From assembly GCF_011762155.1 (NCBI RefSeq), contig NZ_JAASQL010000004.1, forward strand, positions 62,001-126,000: a stretch of 64,000 nucleotides of DNA. Direction: 5' to 3'. The stretch comes from Wenyingzhuangia heitensis (lineage in GTDB: Bacteria > Bacteroidota > Bacteroidia > Flavobacteriales > Flavobacteriaceae). Numbering within the stretch: position 1 is the first letter of the stretch; every line of letters begins with the position of its first letter. The translations under genes and the position numbers were made by a program. This document shows positions 52,058-64,000 of the stretch, in pieces. Under the pieces are notes generated by a model, which was not told where the DNA came from, made no database searches, and worked only from the letters and a program-made list of their open reading frames with translations.

Positions 52058-52639
52058 ATGTTTCAAATAGGGAAAACCATAGTTTCAGAGGAGGTTTTAG
52101 AAAAAGATTTTGTATGTAATATTTCTGCTTGTAAAGGCGAGTGTTGTGTTGCTGGTGATGCTGGGGCACCTGTTTTAGATGAAGAAATAAAAAAACTTAA
52201 CGAAGTATATCCGAAAATTAAACACCTTTTAAGACCCGAAGGAATTGCTGCAATAGAAGAGCAAGGAACTTATACTACATCTAAGTTTGGAGAGCATGAA
52301 ACAACTTTGGTAAATAATAAAGAATGTGCTTTTGTAACTTTTGATGAAAAAGGAATTACATCATGTGGAATAGAACAGGGTTATAATAAAGGTTTGGTAG
52401 ATTGGAAAAAACCAATTTCTTGTCATTTGTATCCTATCCGAGTTCAGGATTATTCTGAGTTTTCTGCAGTGAATTATAACACTTGGGATATTTGTGATGA
52501 TGCTTGTACATTAGGAAAAGAACTACAGGTGCCGGTGTATAAATTTTTAAAAAATGCACTAATTTTAAAATTTGGAGAAAATTGGTACATGGAGTTAGAA
52601 AAAGTTGCAGAAGAATGGAAAAAACAAAAAACTAAATAA
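52058..52639 (+). CDS. DUF3109 (YkgJ-like Cys cluster) family protein
   Basis: 193 residues, no signal peptide. An eight-Cys pattern: CNISACKGECC at residues about 22-32, then CAFVTF, CGIEQG, CHLYPIR and DICDDAC. Such clusters are expected to bind zinc or an iron-sulfur centre. Function unknown. Ends before a long palindromic terminator. Confidence 0.85.
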   Translation: MFQIGKTIVSEEVLEKDFVCNISACKGECCVAGDAGAPVLDEEIKKLNEVYPKIKHLLRPEGIAAIEEQGTYTTSKFGEHETTLVNNKECAFVTFDEKGITSCGIEQGYNKGLVDWKKPISCHLYPIRVQDYSEFSAVNYNTWDICDDACTLGKELQVPVYKFLKNALILKFGENWYMELEKVAEEWKKQKTK

Positions 52640-52656: not shown

Positions 52657-52704
52657 CATAAAACAAAAGGCTCAAAATTTTAATTTTGAGCCTTTTGTTT
52701 TATG
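52657..52704. terminator. Long perfect palindrome, bidirectional terminator
   Basis: 48 bases: arms of 23 bases with a two-base centre, all paired, core AAAAGGCTCAAAATT. Shared by the DUF3109 gene and the convergent nrdA (short form). Confidence 0.92.
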
Positions 52705-52713
52705 TGTTTAGTT

Positions 52714-54429
52714 TTAACCTTCACAACTAGTGCATTCTTTTTTCTGCTTAAATTGTTGAGCAGCATTCATACTGTGTTGATAATACAAAGATTTAACTCC
52801 CAATTCCCAAGCAGTTGTGTGAATTTTATTTAAATCTTTTATAGGCATTTCAGGATGCACCATAATGTTAATAGACTGTCCTTGATCTATATGATTTTGT
52901 CTGTTAGCTGCTTGATAAATAATAGAAAGCTGGTCTAGTTCTGCGTAGGTTTTAAACACATCTTTTTCGTGATCTGTTAAAAAATCTAAATGTTGTACAG
53001 AACCATCTCTATCTCTAATACTTGTCCAAACATCTTTTGTGTTATGCCCTTTTGTTTCTAAAAGATCTTCTAAGTATTTGTTTTTAATAGTGGTTTTAAC
53101 CTTGGCAATATCTTTAACGTAACAGTTAGACCAAATAGGCTCAATTCCCTGAGATACTTGTCCTAAAATAAATGCAGAAGAGGTTGTAGGGGCAATAGCG
53201 TTTAAAGTTGTATTTCTACGACCATATCCTTTTAACACTCCTGGTTCACCGTATAGTTTAGCCATTTCTTCAGAGGCTTTGTATGATTTTTCTTTAATCA
53301 GTTTAAAGATTTCAGAATTGTAATTATATGCTTCTTGAGAATCAAAAGCTAAGTTTTTAGATTGTAAGTAAGAGTGCCATCCTAAAACACCTAAACCTAA
53401 AGCACGATTTTCTTTAGAGAATTTATAAGCTTTTTCCATAAAGTGGAAAATTAACTGATCGTCTTTGTTTTCAGAGTCTCTGTAATCTTCTAGTTTGGTA
53501 ATAAACTCTTCTAACACAGCGTCTAGAAAGTAAGTCATGGTTTCTACAGCATCTGTATCTTTCCATTTATCATAGTGTAAAATGTTTACAGAAGATAGTA
53601 CGCATACAAAAGACCAATCATCGTTGGTAGGTAGCATAATTTCAGAACAAAGATTACTACCATAAATAGTGTGTCCTTTGTCTTTATATACATCCACAGT
53701 GTTGTTGTTTGCATTGTCTTTAAAGAATACGTAAGGATACCCTATTTCACATCTTCTTTGTAAAACTTTAGCCCAAATCGTTCTTTTTTCTTCATCACCA
53801 TCAATCATTTCTTGCATCCAATCATTACCAACACATACACCGTGTGTTAGTTCTTGAATAGGATTTCCTTCTGTACCAATTTCTAAAAACTCCATAATAT
53901 CGGTATGCTCAATATCTAAGTAAGGAGCAAAACGTCCTCTTCTTACAGATCCTTGGCTTACTACGTCTACCATGGTTTCAAAAAGTTGCATCATGTGTAC
54001 AGCTCCAGAAGATTTTCCGTTGTTGCTAATTTCTGCACCACGGGGTCTTAATTTACCAAAGTAACCAGAAGTTCCTCCTCCTAATTTAGACATCATTCCT
54101 GCTTCTGATTGTGCGTATAAAATATCACCTATGTCATCGGCTACATGAGAACCAAAACAACTAATTGGCAATCCTCTTTCTTTTCCAAAATTAGACCATA
54201 CAGGAGATGCTAAGGAATAATAACCTTGAGACATGTAGTAATAAAACTTGTCTGCAAAGCCTTCTTTTTTTAATATTTTTTCTGCGTGATCTGCTATTTC
54301 TCTAATGCGTTCTTCTGGGCTAACACCTTCTAAAAGGTATCCTGCTCCTAAAAAATGTCTACTATGATCTGTTAACCAATCAAACTCGGTTTCTTTTTGT
54401 GTTGTATTTTCTGTGTTGATATCTATCAT
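52714..54429 (-). CDS. Ribonucleotide reductase class I large subunit without ATP-cone
   Basis: 571 residues, short because the N-terminal ATP-cone is missing. All catalytic elements are kept: Cys in PISCFGSH (about 91), the SNLCSEI motif (Asn, Cys, Glu; about 253-259), the partner Cys in SFVCVLSS, the radical-path Tyr pair in SLYYQHS, and a C-terminal redox pair CTSCEG. Reduces ribonucleoside diphosphates. Transcribed after an NrdB that carries the ATP-cone, 21 bases apart. Matches the NrdA partner described for ATP-cone-NrdB enzymes of Flavobacteriia. Confidence 0.9.
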   Translation of the reverse strand: MIDINTENTTQKETEFDWLTDHSRHFLGAGYLLEGVSPEERIREIADHAEKILKKEGFADKFYYYMSQGYYSLASPVWSNFGKERGLPISCFGSHVADDIGDILYAQSEAGMMSKLGGGTSGYFGKLRPRGAEISNNGKSSGAVHMMQLFETMVDVVSQGSVRRGRFAPYLDIEHTDIMEFLEIGTEGNPIQELTHGVCVGNDWMQEMIDGDEEKRTIWAKVLQRRCEIGYPYVFFKDNANNNTVDVYKDKGHTIYGSNLCSEIMLPTNDDWSFVCVLSSVNILHYDKWKDTDAVETMTYFLDAVLEEFITKLEDYRDSENKDDQLIFHFMEKAYKFSKENRALGLGVLGWHSYLQSKNLAFDSQEAYNYNSEIFKLIKEKSYKASEEMAKLYGEPGVLKGYGRRNTTLNAIAPTTSSAFILGQVSQGIEPIWSNCYVKDIAKVKTTIKNKYLEDLLETKGHNTKDVWTSIRDRDGSVQHLDFLTDHEKDVFKTYAELDQLSIIYQAANRQNHIDQGQSINIMVHPEMPIKDLNKIHTTAWELGVKSLYYQHSMNAAQQFKQKKECTSCEG

Positions 54430-54450
54430 GGTGTGTGGGTTTGAAAAGGC

Positions 54451-55722
54451 TTAAAATAAATCGTCTTTGGTAATACTACGTGTTCTTTTGCTATAGTTAA
54501 TAGAGCGTTTTACAAAGAAATCACCATGTTTGGTTCCAATAATTTCATCATCAAACCATTCTGTTTCTGCTAATAATTTTTCATCAATTTTAAATATTGA
54601 GCTAATTCCAATACTTTCTAAAGATTTGTTAAAACGGTTTTTGATGAATTCGTTAATTACATTTACGGGTAAAAAGTCTAATTCTCCGTTTTCAAAAATC
54701 CAATTTACGACACCTGTTTCTGCTTGGTAGGCTTCTGCACAAATTAATTGAATCATTTGTTCAAAATCTTTGGTAAACCAATCTGGGTTTTCTTCTTTGA
54801 TAATCTTAAGTAAGTCAATTCCAAAATCTCCGTGAATTTGTTCTTCTTTAGAAGTTGCTTCTACGGCATTGGAAATTCCTTTTAACATGTTTTTATGCTT
54901 GTTAAAAGCCATGATAATTAAGAATTGAGAAAATAAAGAAACATGTTCTATAAATAAAGAGAATAATAAAATGGCCTCTGTGTATTCTTTGTTGTCGCTA
55001 CTTTTAGTATTTGTTAAAGACTTTTCTAAATAGTGAACCCTTTTCATAATGCTAGGGTTCTTTTTAAGATTGTTAAACTCTTCATTCAACCCTAAAACCT
55101 CTAATAAGTGAGAATAGGCATCGTGATGTCTAACTTCACTTTCTGCAAATGTAGCTCCAACGGCACCAATTTCTGGTTTGGGCATTTTGTGATGTAAATC
55201 TCCCCAAAAGTTTTTTACCGCAACTTCTATTTGAGAAATGGCCAACATGGTGTTTTTTATCGCACTCTTTTCTGTTGGATTTAATCTAGATTTAAAATCT
55301 TGCACATCGCTTGTAAAGTTAAATTCTGTATGAATCCAATAGGAGTGTCTAATAGCATCCACATACTCATTCAGTTCTGGGTATTCGTAAGGTTTAAGGT
55401 TTAAGCGTTTTTCAAAAATATTTTTTTTACGTTTTCTTTTTTGCTCATTTCTATATAATATATATGCCTTTGCAACTTCTAAAAACTCACTGTGCATTAA
55501 CTCTGCTTCTACCATGTCTTGAATGTCCTCAACAGTAGGTGTGTAGTATTTAGTTTCTTGAGAACGAATATTTAGTTTTTCTAAAACTCTAATAGCTATG
55601 GAGTTAGCTTCTGTAAAAGAACCTGTGTTAACAGATTTCATAGAGGCATATATAGCGCTACTAATTTTAGAAATTTTAAAATCAGTGGTGGTATGGTCTC
55701 TTTTTATGATTTTCGATATCAT
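54451..55722 (-). CDS. Ribonucleotide reductase class I small subunit with N-terminal ATP-cone
   Basis: 423 residues. N-terminal ATP-cone about 1-95 (ISKIIKRDHTTTDFKISKIS, then VEDIQDMVEAELM), fused to a ferritin-like NrdB. Metal-ligand regions: QIEVAVKNFWG (about 165), where Glu replaces the usual first-ligand Asp; AESEVRHHDAYSH (about 197-209, ExxH and the position-matched Tyr); FIEHVSL; and EEQIHGDFG. This matches the NrdB group studied in Leeuwenhoekiella blandensis, in which dATP acts through the small subunit; that enzyme was reported with a Mn centre and no tyrosyl radical. Metal here is inference. Upstream of the short NrdA. Confidence 0.92.
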   Translation of the reverse strand: MISKIIKRDHTTTDFKISKISSAIYASMKSVNTGSFTEANSIAIRVLEKLNIRSQETKYYTPTVEDIQDMVEAELMHSEFLEVAKAYILYRNEQKRKRKKNIFEKRLNLKPYEYPELNEYVDAIRHSYWIHTEFNFTSDVQDFKSRLNPTEKSAIKNTMLAISQIEVAVKNFWGDLHHKMPKPEIGAVGATFAESEVRHHDAYSHLLEVLGLNEEFNNLKKNPSIMKRVHYLEKSLTNTKSSDNKEYTEAILLFSLFIEHVSLFSQFLIIMAFNKHKNMLKGISNAVEATSKEEQIHGDFGIDLLKIIKEENPDWFTKDFEQMIQLICAEAYQAETGVVNWIFENGELDFLPVNVINEFIKNRFNKSLESIGISSIFKIDEKLLAETEWFDDEIIGTKHGDFFVKRSINYSKRTRSITKDDLF

Positions 55723-55747
55723 GGCAGTTGCTGGTTTTTGTGACTTA

Positions 55748-55755
55748 CAAAATTA
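55748..55755 (-). promoter_or_regulatory. -7 element TAATTTTG of the ATP-cone nrdB
   Basis: TAnnTTTG on the minus strand, 25 bases before the ATG. TTG (complement of 55778-55780) lies 22 bases upstream as a possible -33 element. Confidence 0.55.
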
Positions 55756-55777
55756 TCGAATAAATAGAGATTTTTAA

Positions 55778-55818
55778 CAACTTTGAGAATTTAGATATCC
55801 ACAATTTAAACAAAGTTG
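55778..55818. promoter_or_regulatory. Inverted repeat CAACTTTG...CAAAGTTG
   Basis: Perfect 8-base arms at 55778-55785 and 55811-55818, in the 385-base gap between the two RNR operons. The left arm contains the possible -33 element of the minus-strand promoter. Between and beside the arms are ATATCCACA (55795-55803) and TTATCAACA (55861-55869), each one base off the DnaA box. The rest of the gap (to 56107) is AT-rich with no gene and no clear plus-strand promoter. Confidence 0.45.
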
Positions 55819-56107
55819 CTAGGGGTTGATATTGTTGCTTTTGAAAGAAAAAACAATAATTTATCAACATTAAAAAGGCAAGAATGTTAAAAAACTGGAA
55901 ATTTTTTTTTGGCGGATGAGCTAATGTTTTTAATCGTATTTTTATGTGAAAAATAAGATTAAAATAAAGAGAGCTAGATTTTAATATTTTGGTCAATTTG
56001 TTAAGAACTTTAACTTTTTGTGGAAAAGTATGTCTTTCTTTTACTACTATTTTTTACAATCTTTGTTAGGTACAATAAAATGCTAATCAATTCATAACAA
56101 GATAACA

Positions 56108-57079
56108 ATGTCTCAAATAGAACCAATTTTACAGGATGATCCCAATAGATTTGTAATTTTTCCGATACAACACCAAGATATTTGGGAGTGGTATAAAAAA
56201 CAAGAAGCAAGTATTTGGACTGCCGAAGAAATTGACCTACACCAAGACGTAGTAGATTGGGAAAATAAGTTAAGTGATGACGAGCGTTACTTTATAAAAC
56301 ACATATTAGCTTTTTTTGCTGCTTCTGATGGGATTGTAAATGAAAATTTAGCAGAAAACTTTGTAAGTGAAGTTCAATATGCCGAAGCTAAGTTTTTTTA
56401 TGGTTTTCAAATCATGATGGAAAACATTCATTCAGAAGTGTACTCTTTATTAATTGATACCTATGTAAAGAACGATGAAGAAAAAAACAAATTGTTTAAA
56501 GCGATAGAATATTTTCCTGCCATTAAGTTAAAAGCAGATTGGGCTTTAAAATGGATAGAATCAGAATCTTTTGCAGAGCGTTTAATTGCGTTTGCAGCGG
56601 TAGAAGGTATTTTCTTTTCGGGTAGTTTTTGTGCTATTTTTTGGATGAAAAAACGTGGTCTTTTACCTGGGTTAACATTTTCTAACGAATTAATTTCTAG
56701 AGATGAAGGATTGCATTGTGATTTTGCAGTGCATTTACACAACAACCACATTGTAAATAAAGTACCAAAAGAACGTATCAAAGAAATTATAATTGATGCC
56801 TTAGATATTGAAAAAGTATTTATAACAGAATCTTTACCTGTAAGTTTAATAGGTATGAATTCTAAATTGATGAGTCAGTATTTAGAATTTGTAACCGATA
56901 GATTGTTGGTGGAGTTTGGATGTGAAAGAGTGTATAACTCTTCTAATCCTTTTGATTTTATGGATATGATTTCTTTAGAGGGAAAAACAAACTTCTTTGA
57001 GAAAAGAGTATCAGAATATCAAAAAGCAGGAGTAAAATCTGGTGGAACAGGAGAAATAAGCTTTGATGCCGATTTCTAA
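56108..57079 (+). CDS. nrdB: Ribonucleotide reductase class I small subunit (no ATP-cone)
   Basis: 323 residues, eukaryote-like NrdB. Ligand and radical positions: LDxxxxDW-type region [23 protein letters not shown] (Asp about 73), [23 protein letters not shown] (Glu, His, Tyr of ExxHxxxY, about 105-112), a second Glu in [12 protein letters not shown] and [11 protein letters not shown]-terminal tail ISFDADF is the expected NrdA-docking peptide. Generates the Tyr radical with Fe or Mn/Fe. Followed by nrdA after 94 bases. Confidence 0.94.
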
Positions 57080-57108
57080 AATATAAACAACAAACTATTT
57101 TTAATGTT

Positions 57109-57139
57109 CTTACACTATCACCCTTAGTGGCAGTGTAGG
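57109..57139 (+). promoter_or_regulatory. Hairpin in the nrdB-nrdA spacer
   Basis: CTTACACT...AGTGTAGG outer stem with inner CAC/GTG around CCTTA; one A-C mismatch and two wobble pairs. No T-tract. Confidence 0.45.
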
Positions 57140-57173
57140 AATGTTATTCTCTATAAATTAAAACTTTAAGACT

Positions 57174-59555
57174 ATGTATGTAATCAAAAGAGATGGGCAC
57201 AAAGAGTCTGTGATGTTTGACAAGATCACGGCCAGAATTAGAAAAATATGTTACGGGTTAAATCCATTAGTGGATCCTGTAAAAGTAGCCATGCGTGTGA
57301 TTGAAGGTTTATATGATGGGGTAACAACATCGGAACTAGACAACTTAGCAGCAGAAATAGCAGCAACCTTAACAACCGCTCATCCAGATTATGCAAAGCT
57401 AGCAGCCAGAATATCAGTATCTAATTTACATAAGAGTACTGAGAAATCTTTTTCTGGAACTATGAAAAAATTATACGAGTATGTAAATCCTCGTACAGGT
57501 TTAGAGTCTCCATTGTTGTCTGATGAGGTTTATAATGTAATTCAAGAAAACTCAGCAGTTTTAGATTCTGCCATTGTATATGATAGAGATTTTAATTACG
57601 ATTATTTTGGTTTTAAAACTTTAGAACGTTCTTATTTACTAAAAATTAATGGAGAAATAGTAGAACGTCCACAACACATGCTAATGCGTGTTTCTATAGG
57701 AATTCACTTAAATGATATTGAAGAGGCGATTGAGACGTATAATTTAATGAGTAAAAAGTTCTTTACCCATGCAACACCAACATTATTTAACTCCGGAACT
57801 CCAAAACCACAAATGTCTTCTTGTTTTTTATTACAAATGCAAGATGATAGTATTGATGGTATTTACGATACTTTAAAACAAACAGCAAAAATATCACAAT
57901 CGGCAGGAGGTATTGGTTTGTCTATTCATAATATTAGAGCTACGGGTTCTTACATTCGTGGGACTAACGGAACTTCTAACGGAATCATTCCCATGTTAAA
58001 AGTTTATAATGATACGGCTCGTTATGTAGATCAGGGAGGAGGAAAGCGTAAAGGTTCTTTTGCTATTTATATTGAGCCTTGGCATGCTGATGTTTTTGAG
58101 TTTTTAGATTTAAGAAAAAATACAGGAGCAGAAGAAAAACGTGCAAGAGATTTGTTTTTAGCCTTGTGGATTTCTGATTTGTTTATGCAACGTGTAGAGC
58201 AAAATGCAGAATGGACATTAATGTGTCCAAATGAATGTCCTGGTCTATATGATACATATGGAGAGGATTTTGAGGCATTGTATACAAAATACGAAACGGA
58301 AGGAAAGGGAAGAAAAACCATTAAAGCTCGTGAATTATGGGAAAAAGTTTTAGAGGCTCAAATTGAGACAGGAAATCCATACATGTTGTATAAAGATGCA
58401 GCTAACCGTAAGTCGAATCAAAAGAATTTAGGAGTGATTCGTTCTTCTAATTTGTGTACAGAGATTATGGAATATACAGCAAAAGATGAAGTTGCTGTGT
58501 GTAATTTAGCATCTATTGCCATTCCAATGTTTGTAGAAACAAATGAGCAAGGAGAAAAATTCTTTAATCACGATAAATTATACAAAGTAGTTAAAAAAGT
58601 AACCAGAAATTTAGATACGGTAATTGATAGGAATTACTATCCGGTTAAAGAAGCAGAAAATTCTAATAAGAGACATCGTCCTGTAGGATTAGGAATTCAA
58701 GGACTGGCAGATGCGTTTATTATGTTGCGAATGCCATTTACATCTGACGAAGCAAAACAATTAAACAAAGATATTTTTGAAACTTTATACTTTGCAGCTG
58801 TAGAATCATCTATGGAAATAGCAACTAAAAAAGGTGCTTACTCTACATTTAAAGGATCTCCAATGTCACAAGGAGAGTTTCAATTTAATATGTGGGGAGT
58901 AAATGATGAAGATTTAAGTGGTCGTTGGAACTGGGGCAAGTTAAGAACAGAAGTGCAGAAAAACGGAGTGCGTAACTCTTTACTGGTAGCTCCAATGCCA
59001 ACAGCATCTACCTCTCAGATTTTAGGGAATAACGAAGCTTTTGAACCTTATACATCTAACATATACACACGTAGAGTATTGTCAGGGGAGTTTATTGTAG
59101 TAAATAAACACCTGTTAGAAGATTTGGTTGAGTTAGGGTTGTGGGACAATGCATTAAAAGAAGAGTTGATGAGAGCTAATGGTTCTATTCAGCATATCGA
59201 AGAAATTCCACAAGAATTAAAAGATTTATACAAAACGGTTTGGGAGTTAAGCATGAAAGATATTATTGATATGTCTCGTCATAGAGGATATTTTATAGAT
59301 CAATCTCAATCACTAAACTTATTTATGGAAGATGCTAACTATTCTAAATTAACATCTATGCATTTTTACGCTTGGAAATCAGGGTTAAAAACGGGAATGT
59401 ATTATTTAAGAACAAAATCTGCTGTAAACGCAATTAAATTTACCTTAAATAATGATAAAAAAGAAGAAGACAAGCCTATGTCTCCAGAAGAATTTAAGGC
59501 AATGGTTTTACAATCTAAAGAAAACCCAGATGATTGTGAAATGTGTGGATCTTAA
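57174..59555 (+). CDS. nrdA: Ribonucleotide reductase class I large subunit with ATP-cone
   Basis: 793 residues. N-terminal ATP-cone about 1-95 ([21 protein letters not shown]). Catalytic Cys in MSSCFLLQ (about 216), specificity region [22 protein letters not shown] (about 424), VAVCNLAS, Tyr pair GMYYLRT (about 743) and C-terminal CEMCGS redox pair. Typical class Ia allosteric large subunit: ATP activates and dATP inhibits through the cone. Operon with nrdB; terminator downstream. Confidence 0.95.
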
Positions 59556-59750: not shown

Positions 59751-62700
59751 ATGCCCCAATATCTAAAAATAATAATAACCTTATATTTATTACCCCTGTG
59801 TTTATTTGCACAAAAAGGACCGGGAGGTGTAGGTAGTACAAACGGATCAGATATGTATTTGTGGTTAAAGGCAGATGTAGGTGTGACTGTTGCAACTGGA
59901 GTAAGTGCATGGGCAGATCAGTCTGGTAGTGGAAATAACGTTACAGCTCCCTCAGCGAGCCAACAACCTGTTTACAATACAAGTTCACTTATATATAATA
60001 GTATGCCTGTTGTTGAGTTTGATGGTGAAGATACAGCCAATGGTGATGAGTTGTTTTCTAGTTCGTTTTCTGATATAACAGATACAAGTCATACAGCTTT
60101 TATAGTTTGGGATATAGATGAAAATATTCCTGAAAATGAATCAGCTTTATATGGAATGCAAGGAAGTTTTGGTACTGGTGGTTTTCAAATAGATGCATAT
60201 GATGGAGATTTATGGTTATTCTCTAACAATTCAACAATTATAGAGCCTTTCCCTAACTATGATGCACCTATTATTACTAATTTTTTTAGAAAATCAAATA
60301 ATAGATTTGATGTTTATAAAAATGAAGAAATAATTCTTTCAAACTACGCTTTAAATAATGGTTCCGTAGATATGGGGACTCGATTTGTTTTGGGAGTAGA
60401 AAGAAATTTAACAGATTCTAGACATTTAGAAGTTAATATATCGGAAATTATACATTATAAAAAAACATTAAATCTTGCGGAAAGAATTATTGTTAGCAAT
60501 CACTTAAGTTCAAAATATAATATTCCATTAAGTTCAAATAATTTTTATAATGAAGATGATTCAGATAATGGGAATTTTGATTTTGATGTAATTGGAATTG
60601 GACGAGCAACAGATGGGACTAGCAGTTTAAGTGCACAAAGTAATGGTATTATAGGTGTAAATACGCCTTCTACTATTGCTAATGATCGATTTTTAATGAT
60701 AGGTCATAACAACGTGTCTTTAGAGGTGGATGAAGAAATTAATGTTCCTTCAGGAATAAGAAATCGATTAACACGTTTGTGGAGAGCTAGTAAAAGAAAT
60801 GATTTAGGAACTGTAACAGTAGCTATGGATATCAGTTTTTCTGTAAATAAAGCTAATTTTTCTACAGCCAATCTAAGATTATTAGTAGATACGGATGATA
60901 ACTTTACGTCAGGAACAGTAACCTATACAGCAACTAGCTACAATTCAACAACAGGAATTGCTACTTTTAATAATGTAGCAATTGCAGATAATAATTATGT
61001 AACAATTGCTTCTACAGCTACCAACCCATATTATTTTGGGAGCTTGGGATCTGCAGGAGGAGCTAATGGAGAAGATATTGGTGTAGCAGGTATTGATGGA
61101 CCAGGAGGAATAGGTTCTGTAAACGGATCTAGTATGTATATGTGGATGAGACCTGATGCTGGAGTAACAACTTCTTCAGGAGAAATTACAGCTTGGGCTG
61201 ATCAATCAGGTTTTTTACACAATGGAACAAATGCTTATTCATTAACACCTAATACAACAAACCCAGAGTTTGGAACAAATGCCATGAACGGTTATGATGT
61301 TTTAACCTTAGATGGTACTGCCGATGCTATGGTTTTTGATGTAGACGATATTACAGATGACTCTTATGATATGTATTTTGTTTGGAAAAAACTAGAAGCA
61401 CAAGAACAGAACGCTTCACTTTTTTCAAATGCTGATAATAGTGGAGATACCGGGTCTTTTCAAATAGCTCATAGTAGTGGTTCTGGTTTTTATTTGAATA
61501 TAAGGAGTAATAGTAATGTAGATTTTGGTAACTATTCATTTACGGAATCAAACAACATTTTAGGGTTTAGTAGAAGAGGAGATAACACTTTAGATGCATA
61601 CATAGATGGAAGTGTTCAGCAATCGAATTTTACTTTATCAAATTCTGATATAATGTCGGTTTTTAGTAAATTTAAGTTAGGAGTAAATAGAGGTTCAGGG
61701 AAGTTTTTAGGGTTAGATTTGGCAGAAGTGTTAATGTTTAATAGAAATGTTAATACTACACAAAGAATTATATTGCAAAACTACTTAAGTGCTAAATACA
61801 ATATTACTTTAGGAGCAAATAATAAATATACTTATGATGATGGATCAGGATTGTTTGATCATCATTTGGCGGGTATTGGTAGAGAAACTTCTACAAATTT
61901 ACACAAAGATGCTAAAGGGACTGGGCCTGTAAGAATTTACAACCCATCTGCTATGGGAAATGGGGAATATTTAATATGGGCTTGTGATGCTATTAATTCT
62001 ACGTTTACATTTTCTAATTTACCTAGTGAAAATTATGTAGATAGATTAGAAACTAAATGGAGAGCAGGAGGTAGCGGTGATGTAGGGACAGTTGATGTAG
62101 AGTTTACTTTATCAGAATTAAATGTTGTGTCTTCAGTCTCTGAGTCTTGTAGAAATTATGTATTAATTATAGATAATAACTCAAACTTTAGTTCACCAGA
62201 ACACAGAATTAAGATGTCTGTTGTGGGGGATGTTTTAAGAGCAACTGGAGTAGATTTAGACGGAGGTGACTATTTTACAGTACAAATAGATAATACTATT
62301 TCTTATACAGGAGGAACTTGGTCTCATCCATTATCTACAAGATCAGGATCTCCGGAACCTAATAGTGAAGATGATTGCTTTGATGTTATAGTATATGACG
62401 GAACAGTAACTTTAAGCAACTATGCTGAAGTTAACAGTGTAACTATTAATGATGCTAGTACATTAGCTATTGCAACAGGAGATGCTTTTTTGGTTTACAA
62501 CAGCATTAACACCAATAGCACGGGTAAAATGAAAATGTTAGGAGATGCTCAGTTATTACAAGATCCTTTTGAGGTCTTAACTACAAATCCAAATTCAGGT
62601 CTAGGTTTTTATAGTCAATTTACAACTGTTGCCAAAAATATATATTCATATAGTTACATAAGTCCATCAGCAAGTAATGGAACAACGTATAATCTTCAAT

Positions 62701-64000
62701 CTAATTTAAGAGATGGTAGAGGTTCTAATGCGTTAAGTACTACTGTAGATGGAGCAAATTTTGTATTTGACGAGTCTAATAGTGATGGTGTTCAAGGAGG
62801 CTCAAGCACTACATTAAGTACCGAATGGATGTATACTTATGCAAGCGATACAGACGGTTTTGTTTTAAAGAAGCATACGGGAAATATTAATGTTGGTTTA
62901 GGAGTTACAGTTAAAGAACCGGGAACAACAGCTCAAACATATATATCTAAAGGAATTCCAAATACAGGAGAGTATAGTTTTACATTAAATGAAGATTCTG
63001 TTGCTTTGTTAGCGAATCCATATCCAAGTGCAATAAATGCAACCTTATTTTTTATAGACAATCCAAAAGTAGATGTATTGTATTATTATGAAGATATGAG
63101 TTTAAGTCATGTGGAAGAAGAGTATGAAGGAGGATACGCATCATATACAAGTAATGGAGGTGGTGTTGCAGCTTCTACAACAGCATACGATGGAAGTTCT
63201 TTTTCAGGAACCATAACTCCACAACTTTATATTCCTGTAGGTCAGGCCTTTTTTGTATCTATACCTACTAATGGGGATGCAAGTACAACAGCAGATGTTG
63301 TCTTTAAAAATGGACAAAGAGTCAATAAGTTTTTAGGTAGTAATTCTGTTATTTTTAAACAGAAAGAATTAAATATTTTGAACTCTAAGCCGGATCCAGA
63401 ATCTTTAAGATTAGGGTTTGAGTTTACATTAAATGATGGAGGAGTTTACCATAGACAGATAGGTGTTAACTTTAGTGAAGGTAACAGCTTGTCTACGTAT
63501 GATATTGGCTTTGATGCTCCTCTTTTTGATGAAAAAAGCAAAGATGCATATATTGAAAATCAAAATCAAAAATTTGTGCTAGCAGGTGTTGGGGAATTGT
63601 CAGATGAGTTAGAGGTGCCTATTAAAGTCGTTTTAGATGAAGACAAAGAGGTTACTTTTATGTTAGATGACATTAAAGATATTGAAGAAGTATACTTAAA
63701 GGATAATGTAGAAGAAACAGAATTACCGTTGAAAGGAAAAATAGTTAAAAAAACATTAACGTCAGGGGTGTATGATAATCGATTCTCTTTAACATTTAAA
63801 AAACAAGAAACACTGTCTAATGATAATCTAGAACAGGATAAGTTAAAAATAGAAAATAAAGAAGGTGTTATAAAAGTTACCTCAAATGAATATAATATTT
63901 TATCTCTAAGTATTATAGATATAATGGGGAAAACAGTTCATAAAAGTAATACTAGTATAATAGACTGTTCAAAAATAAGATCAGGAATAGTAGTCTTAAA
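59751..64000 (+). CDS. Giant T9SS-secreted surface protein with two LamG-like modules (3' partial)
   Basis: Open from ATG 59751 to the window end (over 1,416 residues, no stop). Signal peptide MPQYLKIIITLYLLPLCLFAQ. Two long modules repeat: GPGGVGSTNGSDMYLWLKAD (from about residue 23) and GPGGIGSVNGSSMYMWMRPD (from about 452). Each is a LamG/concanavalin-like fold, followed by a domain with GIGRATDGTSS or GIGRETSTNLH, and ending with RLWRASKRNDLGTVTV or KWRAGGSGDVGTVDV. A further beta-rich region has LLANPYPSAINA and IPVGQAFFVSIP. The last residues (ILSLSIIDIMGKTV) open a T9SS type A sorting tail. Adhesion or glycan-binding role is inferred only. Confidence 0.85.
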   Translation, partial: MPQYLKIIITLYLLPLCLFAQKGPGGVGSTNGSDMYLWLKADVGVTVATGVSAWADQSGSGNNVTAPSASQQPVYNTSSLIYNSMPVVEFDGEDTANGDELFSSSFSDITDTSHTAFIVWDIDENIPENESALYGMQGSFGTGGFQIDAYDGDLWLFSNNSTIIEPFPNYDAPIITNFFRKSNNRFDVYKNEEIILSNYALNNGSVDMGTRFVLGVERNLTDSRHLEVNISEIIHYKKTLNLAERIIVSNHLSSKYNIPLSSNNFYNEDDSDNGNFDFDVIGIGRATDGTSSLSAQSNGIIGVNTPSTIANDRFLMIGHNNVSLEVDEEINVPSGIRNRLTRLWRASKRNDLGTVTVAMDISFSVNKANFSTANLRLLVDTDDNFTSGTVTYTATSYNSTTGIATFNNVAIADNNYVTIASTATNPYYFGSLGSAGGANGEDIGVAGIDGPGGIGSVNGSSMYMWMRPDAGVTTSSGEITAWADQSGFLHNGTNAYSLTPNTTNPEFGTNAMNGYDVLTLDGTADAMVFDVDDITDDSYDMYFVWKKLEAQEQNASLFSNADNSGDTGSFQIAHSSGSGFYLNIRSNSNVDFGNYSFTESNNILGFSRRGDNTLDAYIDGSVQQSNFTLSNSDIMSVFSKFKLGVNRGSGKFLGLDLAEVLMFNRNVNTTQRIILQNYLSAKYNITLGANNKYTYDDGSGLFDHHLAGIGRETSTNLHKDAKGTGPVRIYNPSAMGNGEYLIWACDAINSTFTFSNLPSENYVDRLETKWRAGGSGDVGTVDVEFTLSELNVVSSVSESCRNYVLIIDNNSNFSSPEHRIKMSVVGDVLRATGVDLDGGDYFTVQIDNTISYTGGTWSHPLSTRSGSPEPNSEDDCFDVIVYDGTVTLSNYAEVNSVTINDASTLAIATGDAFLVYNSINTNSTGKMKMLGDAQLLQDPFEVLTTNPNSGLGFYSQFTTVAKNIYSYSYISPSASNGTTYNLQSNLRDGRGSNALSTTVDGANFVFDESNSDGVQGGSSTTLSTEWMYTYASDTDGFVLKKHTGNINVGLGVTVKEPGTTAQTYISKGIPNTGEYSFTLNEDSVALLANPYPSAINATLFFIDNPKVDVLYYYEDMSLSHVEEEYEGGYASYTSNGGGVAASTTAYDGSSFSGTITPQLYIPVGQAFFVSIPTNGDASTTADVVFKNGQRVNKFLGSNSVIFKQKELNILNSKPDPESLRLGFEFTLNDGGVYHRQIGVNFSEGNSLSTYDIGFDAPLFDEKSKDAYIENQNQKFVLAGVGELSDELEVPIKVVLDEDKEVTFMLDDIKDIEEVYLKDNVEETELPLKGKIVKKTLTSGVYDNRFSLTFKKQETLSNDNLEQDKLKIENKEGVIKVTSNEYNILSLSIIDIMGKTVHKSNTSIIDCSKIRSGIVVL

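Follow-up and report, generated by a model that had tools for sequence, protein, structure and literature searches.

A 64,000-nucleotide stretch of the Wenyingzhuangia heitensis genome (contig NZ_JAASQL010000004.1, positions 62,001 to 126,000), hereafter the window, carries two class I ribonucleotide reductase (RNR) operons placed back to back. By sequence, the minus-strand pair is a class Id RNR of the Leeuwenhoekiella blandensis type, composed of nrdAi (52714..54429), the 571-residue catalytic subunit, and nrdBi (54451..55722), the 423-residue radical subunit. The plus-strand pair is assigned in the same way to the eukaryote-type class Ia RNRs, with nrdBe (56108..57079, 323 residues) followed by nrdAe (57174..59555, 793 residues). 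The four open reading frames (ORFs), their lengths and the 385-bp gap that separates them (55723-56107) are as described in an earlier note on this DNA. Both enzymes are of known kinds; their arrangement is rare and was seen here in one genus. The divergent pair is probably a co-resident stage of the replacement of one RNR class by another at a fixed chromosomal slot. We read as new that this swap is caught in several states, with one slot, three states within the genus and completed swaps elsewhere in the family.

Seven Wenyingzhuangia genomes, including that of the window (G000), were compared. Four of them encode an NrdBi with an ATP-cone and six encode NrdBe. The divergent pair is found in three (G000, G149 and G153), in the order DUF3109, antisense Id operon, Ia operon. 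W. aestuarii DSM 105044 is a named carrier of both operons. The DUF3109 gene, which in the window encodes 193 residues (52058..52639, plus strand; PF11307, 263 bits), is the conserved left neighbour that marks the slot. Three genomes (G150, G151 and G152) have Ia only, with just 281-284 bp between DUF3109 and nrdBe, and the order in G152 is DUF3109, nrdBe, nrdAe, hisS, folE. In G154, a metagenome-assembled genome (MAG) that is 85% complete, the order is DUF3109, nrdAi, nrdBi, hisS, folE, and Ia was not found. The outgroups G002, G113 and G047 have DUF3109, nrdBe, nrdAe.

In a tree of rpoB, G153 joins the Ia-only clade at 98% and G000 joins G149 at 91%. The Id genes of all four carriers group as a single clade (support 1.0 and 99.6 in two trees). 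Because G153 groups with the Ia-only species and the carriers' Id genes are one clade, the simplest account is that the ancestor shared by G153 and G150-152 already had Id at the site and that the latter three lost it. Loss of Ia is likewise the simplest account for G154. The resident would have been the eukaryote-type class Ia operon nrdBe-nrdAe, which in most of the family lies near DUF3109. Before the divergence of the Wenyingzhuangia species sampled, a class Id operon (nrdBi-nrdAi) would have been inserted between DUF3109 and the Ia promoter, antisense and with a promoter of its own. Afterwards, three species would have lost Id, one would have lost Ia, and three would have retained both. 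In other genera the swap would be complete, two Id clades having their Id genes behind an Ia-type promoter.

The earlier note had raised the question of whether the divergent pair is conserved in Flavobacteriaceae, and it proved not to be. Among 149 genomes, one per genus, both RNRs are adjacent in G000 alone. Ia was found in 117 of these genomes, a cone-bearing Id in 28 and a coneless Id in 8. From these counts, cone-bearing Id and Ia would be expected to coincide in 22 genomes, but they do so in 8; any Id coincides with Ia in 10. DUF3109 lies upstream of the Ia nrdB, on the same strand and within 25 kb, in 107 of the 117 Ia genomes, and within 1.5 kb in 64. Of the 20 cone-Id genomes without Ia, 8 hold Id in the DUF3109 slot (6 within 1.5 kb, 1 at 5.3 kb and 1 antisense). 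The same gene content, namely family F13, DUF3109, RNR and family F27, is common to G113 (Ia), G044 (Id) and G076 (Id antisense). DUF3109 often stays beside the slot whichever class I RNR occupies it; the protein contains cysteines. It was considered as an RNR-dependent factor and set aside, since no dependence appeared: it is nearly universal, occurring in 144 of 149 genomes and in all 125 good genomes, and 4 of the 6 genomes that yielded neither class I enzyme have it.

The Id side was further surveyed in the best 80 of 577 related loci. All 80 contain nrdAi, and a strong NrdBe match is present in two, both from Wenyingzhuangia. At least 21 kb are held by 62 of the 80 loci; neighbours can be missed in the remainder because these are shorter.

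The gap between the two operons of the window was taken in the earlier note for a single control region. The gap is indeed contiguous, but it looks like two promoters that differ in age. Its right end looks, by sequence comparison, like an older Ia promoter that species lacking class Id share; a separate -7-like element belongs to Id. Over 72 bp, the Ia block (55998..56069, plus strand) is 83-85% identical to the corresponding sites in G150-152, which lack Id. It contains TGTTAAGAACT-N9-TGTGGAAAAGT (55999-56029) and AATCTTTG (56058-56065). Its pattern, TGTT[AG]A[AG]AACT followed after a 30-60 bp spacer by AT[CA]TTTG, occurs upstream of nrdBe in 47 of 49 Ia loci, a non-random set made of 40 loci drawn largely from the higher ranks among the 117, six from the genus genomes and three from the outgroups. 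On the Id side, the putative -7 element TAATTTTG (55748..55755, minus strand) begins 33 bp before nrdBi and resembles TAnnTTTG, which we take to be the -7 consensus. All four Id-carrying Wenyingzhuangia genomes have TAATTTTG/A 30-33 bp ahead of the nrdBi start. A shared bidirectional region that co-regulates both operons is suggested by the head-to-head starts 385 bp apart and by the DnaA-box-like sites on both sides. It is nevertheless unlikely, given that the Ia block persists in species without Id, that a separate -7-like element lies 33 bp from the Id start, and that little conservation is apparent between the two blocks in a four-genome alignment.

The same Ia-type block is found in front of Id genes in other genera. 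Of the 80 Id loci, 39 have it 111-305 bp ahead of the mapped nrdBi start, and its presence follows the context. It was found in 35 of 37 loci with DUF3109 upstream on the same strand and in 2 of 32 without DUF3109 in the locus (35/2 versus 2/30, Fisher p 7e-15), in none of 4 with a convergent DUF3109, and in 2 of 7 with short flanks. Two loci with an upstream DUF3109, L091 and L104, gave no match to the pattern. Among 351 control gaps, 11 matched, all of which by their coordinates end just upstream of nrdBi; the other 340 gave no match. In the Id tree, the 39 block-bearing loci belong to two supported clades, one of 27 and one of 11 sequences (both 99.9), the smaller of which includes the block-bearing G044; L093 and L108 stand in addition to these. 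Since the two clades are separately supported, Id would have come under an Ia-type promoter on two or more occasions, if the clades are right. The Id operon of Wenyingzhuangia differs in this respect, having its own promoter element and not the Ia-type block. In L104, a short frame beginning MLQKEPNLHQNTDQF lies about 110-190 bp before the mapped nrdBi start, after an Ia-like upstream element, and resembles the N-terminus of NrdBe.

Several points weigh against replacement at this slot. Support for the deeper rpoB splits within the genus is weak (57 and 62), and the donor of Id is not fixed, its sister support being 0.87 and 52.5 in two trees. An Ia copy elsewhere in G154 is possible, because this MAG is incomplete. 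The Id-free sites yielded no convincing trace of Id, and G154 none of Ia, so that it is the tree and the gene order that speak for the losses. The sole possible Ia remnant in another genus, the match of the L104 frame to 27 residues of the NrdBe N-terminus, has an E value of 1.1 and is at most a hint. Three of the 117 Ia calls are weak, G031 being 37% identical and G081 and G106 being fragments at contig ends. The Fisher p-values, including those for the co-occurrence of Ia with cone-bearing Id (1e-10) and with any Id (2e-15), overstate the case because genera are not independent, and serve as guides. Finally, all four genes persist in three species, and retention over long times is not what a mere lag before loss would predict.

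A rival reading, in line with the inference of the earlier note, is a stable division of labour, in which the two enzymes would form a working pair, Id serving under low iron or superoxide stress and Ia during iron-replete growth. In the three species with both pairs, strong purifying selection acts on each, the both-enzyme state spans the genus tree and is therefore long-lasting, and Id is Mn-dependent and superoxide-activated in characterised relatives (PMC6754362, PMC8463856). A fixed division of labour nonetheless seems somewhat doubtful, as opposite single-enzyme states exist inside one genus and the family as a whole avoids the co-occurrence of Id and Ia. Replacement or redundancy would explain such opposite states no less well than fixed roles would.

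Selection was strong and purifying on all four nrd genes. Among the Wenyingzhuangia genome pairs listed, the ratio of nonsynonymous to synonymous rates (dN/dS) was 0.027-0.064 for nrdBi, 0.032-0.070 for nrdAi, 0.010-0.023 for nrdBe and 0.023-0.047 for nrdAe, values that are rough since several dS are near or above 1. With dN/dS at 0.01-0.07, neither pair looks like a decayed relic. That one pair is silent or decaying would accord with functional redundancy, which is named as the null hypothesis by Lundin 2010 (PMC3019208). We regard it as very improbable here, because the frames, the ligand motifs and the Cys motifs are intact and the dN/dS values are this low.

The sequences point to different subclasses for the two enzymes. 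NrdBi matches the L. blandensis NrdB (LbNrdB) structure 5OLK end to end (678 bits), with 72.9% identity over 421 aligned residues, 51.5% in the cone and 79.3% in the core. The Glu in QIEVAVK that the earlier note had singled out as standing in place of the first-ligand Asp is Glu166, which aligns with LbNrdB Glu170. It is no oddity, since Glu in place of Asp as first metal ligand is given as the class Id signature in PMC6754362. The same source gives the LbNrdB Mn ligands as Glu, Glu, His, Glu, Glu and His at positions 170, 200, 203, 263, 298 and 301; in NrdBi the remaining ligands were located by motif and a constant offset of 4 as Glu196, His199, Glu259, Glu294 and His297. Lys170 and Trp173, four and seven residues past Glu166, are those of the class Id subgroup. 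Lys170 corresponds to LbNrdB Lys174, and the neighbouring Trp and Tyr are the same as in 5OLK. The partner NrdAi is short and coneless, with no PF03477 match, and scores 777.8 bits against TIGR02510 (cut-off 602.25); its nearest structures are 6dqx, the best PDB match, and 6dqw. Its Cys91, Cys261 and Cys276 and the C-terminal CxxC sit in the usual motifs and presumably have the usual roles.

The plus-strand pair gives nearly full-length matches to R2 and R1 entries, which we take to be human or mouse. The best PDB match of NrdBe is 2uw2, an M2 (R2) subunit (E 2.2e-138), and that of NrdAe is the large subunit 3hnc (1191 bits), presumably human RRM1. Asp74 as first ligand, Glu105, His108, Tyr112, Glu166, Glu200 and His203 were located in NrdBe, their ligand and radical-Tyr roles being assumed from R2. 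The cone is on NrdA, as in eukaryote-type class Ia enzymes. By best sequence matches, the pair fits the eukaryote-type class I RNR that was reported to have moved from eukaryotes into marine Bacteroidetes (Lundin 2010, PMC3019208). Neither NrdB reaches its NCBIfam cut-off (best 153.5 versus 237 for 54451-55722, and 169.7 versus 309 for 56108-57079), which is an annotation gap.

The two NrdBs are 21% identical over 209 residues and the two NrdAs 26% over 591. The earlier note had named a single recent duplication as one of two findings that would overturn its proposal. Such an origin has only the adjacency of the pairs in its favour and is excluded by these identities and by nearest structures from different subclasses; we give it practically no credence. 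The proposal itself, that a Mn-type and an Fe-type RNR stand side by side, is borne out to the extent that the sequences indicate one dimanganese-type and one iron/tyrosyl-type class I enzyme.

The note also had the ATP-cone on opposite subunits, and this holds: PF03477 was found in the 423-residue NrdB (residues 4-96, 55435..55713, minus strand, 73 bits) and in the 793-residue NrdA (residues 1-87, 57174-57434, plus strand, about 60-62 bits; 59.8 and 61.6), and in neither the 571-residue NrdA nor the 323-residue NrdB. Each RNR thus has one apparently intact cone. At the cone interface of NrdBi, the equivalents of Asp73, Met80, Lys89, Ile92, Arg95 and Arg102 are kept and Ile93 is replaced by Leu; position 76 is Glu in both aligned rows, whereas the paper on LbNrdB names Asp76. 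In human R1, dATP drives the formation of inactive oligomers. By analogy, dATP would shut the Ia enzyme through NrdAe oligomers and the Id enzyme through NrdB tetramers, and ATP would keep both active. Tetramer formation driven by dATP is described for L. blandensis-type NrdB (PMC5794259). As precedents for a cone on NrdB the note had cited both L. blandensis, which is sound, and Flavobacterium, which is not, since PMC6754362 describes the characterised F. johnsoniae class Id NrdB as free of extra domains such as a cone. According to the same paper, class Id needs Mn and superoxide or peroxide; in vitro it requires only Mn(II) and superoxide, unlike class Ib (PMC8463856). The Id enzyme would accordingly be expected, by analogy, to use a Mn2(IV,III) cofactor made with superoxide or peroxide, and Ia a diiron-tyrosyl cofactor.

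Two DnaA-box-like sites lie in the gap, ATATCCACA upstream of the Id promoter (55795..55803, minus strand, the sequence being given as it reads on the plus strand) and TTATCAACA (55861..55869, plus strand), each with one mismatch. The Ia block also contains 9-mers close to TTATCCACA, which we take to be the DnaA box consensus. Of the 49 Ia upstream regions, 16 contain boxes with at most one mismatch (3.9 in shuffles), as do 31 of the 80 Id regions (6.3 in shuffles). Among other gaps the figure is 15 of 343, a control set that probably contains some nrdB upstream gaps missed by the filter. Looser box pairs 2-3 bp apart occur in 20 of 49 Ia and 38 of 80 Id regions and in 12 of the 343 other gaps, and in none of the shuffles. 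Pairs 11 bp apart, the form found in the Ia block of the window, are present in 22 of the 49 Ia regions and in 3 of the 80 Id regions. In E. coli, nrdAB is reported to be under DnaA control (PMC8203912), and DnaA to favour box pairs 2 or 3 bp apart (PMC11317965). Control of the present nrd operons by DnaA is put forward as a hypothesis drawn from predicted sites. Against it, the Id-side boxes are weak in the genus, the matching position having two mismatches in G149 and G154 and one in G153, and the 31-bp Ia form occurs five times in G000 (once at nrdBe) and nine times in G153, often before accessory genes. Upstream regions of Ia and Id alike are enriched in the tandem DnaA-box-like element, which is not specific to RNR.

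In six Wenyingzhuangia genomes, TGTTAARAACT-N9-TGTGRAWAAGT (at most two mismatches) has 3-9 copies per genome, the nrdBe copy included; G154 has none, and the reversed-pattern control gave 0. The element (55999-56029 in the window; loci L197-L224) often precedes accessory genes, which from reading of their translations are SEFIR-like, nucleotidyltransferase-like, regulator-like or unknown. Its copies in G153 lie in cassette-like clusters; an integron was considered for these loci, and an integrase above the family cut-off was found in none of the seven genomes.

These promoter observations also allow a bolder form of the replacement reading. The slot beside DUF3109 would exchange radical chemistry as a cassette, the iron-tyrosyl Ia enzyme being replaced repeatedly and independently by the manganese Id enzyme behind the resident promoter, whose tandem boxes would bind DnaA and couple the enzyme in the slot to replication; the Wenyingzhuangia pair would be such a swap with both enzymes still in place. 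We offer this tentatively, with the chances somewhat against it.

Regarding the RNR complement of the genome, only two PF03477 matches at E <= 0.001 were found genome-wide, both within these RNR genes. NrdR, which combines a Zn ribbon with an ATP-cone, was not seen, no third match being present at this threshold, and NrdR control of the nrd genes was ruled out because the genome has no further ATP-cone. Likewise, PF02867 gave no large subunit in the genome besides NrdAi and NrdAe, and a class II partner as in L. blandensis was excluded on that basis. A class III NrdD is present elsewhere. Given two class I pairs, this NrdD and no further PF02867 match, the genome holds classes Ia, Id and III. 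The class III RNR is a single 744-residue frame (L147:901-3135; G000 contig 1, near 1144.8 kb), in which an N-terminal activase-like 4Fe-4S segment (Fer4_12, CPLRCNGCHSP) is fused to NrdD and no ATP-cone was detected.

Around the slot, a terminator-like inverted repeat with two 20-bp arms and a 2-nt centre (52660..52701) lies between the convergent DUF3109 and nrdAi. On the other side, between nrdAe and hisS (window 59751-63998 and on into L135), very large related ORFs form a variable stretch: three in G000, two in G149, one in G150 and none in G152.

As RNR is essential, it is fair to ask how a lineage can exchange an iron radical cofactor for a manganese one without passing through a lethal stage. 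At a single site, the genomes of one genus have both enzymes, Ia alone or Id alone, and the completed swap, with Id behind an Ia-type promoter, is seen in the family. With three states at one site and finished swaps, the choice between lag and specialisation can be tested by comparing close species. Among the open-licence papers searched, none joined Wenyingzhuangia with ribonucleotide reductase, dealt with DUF3109, or combined RNR, DnaA box and Bacteroidetes, and none on RNR transfer or replacement in Flavobacteriaceae was, by its title or the start of its abstract, about this swap.

Among known systems, the L. blandensis class Id RNR (5OLK, 6SF4 and 6SF5) belongs to the same subclass as the minus-strand pair, with the six Mn ligands, Lys174 and the nearby Trp and Tyr identical and most cone-interface residues kept. 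In L. blandensis a class II RNR is reported alongside Id (PMC5794259), whereas the Wenyingzhuangia genome has a class Ia adjoining it and a class III elsewhere. As in E. coli nrdAB (PMC8203912), DnaA-box-like pairs stand upstream of nrd genes, here as predicted sites; a difference is that the element in Wenyingzhuangia also occurs away from RNR genes. The eukaryote-type class Ia of marine Bacteroidetes (PMC3019208) likewise has its cone on NrdA and is R1/R2-like, a likeness judged by best matches. Unlike that enzyme, the Ia described here shares its slot with a class Id operon.

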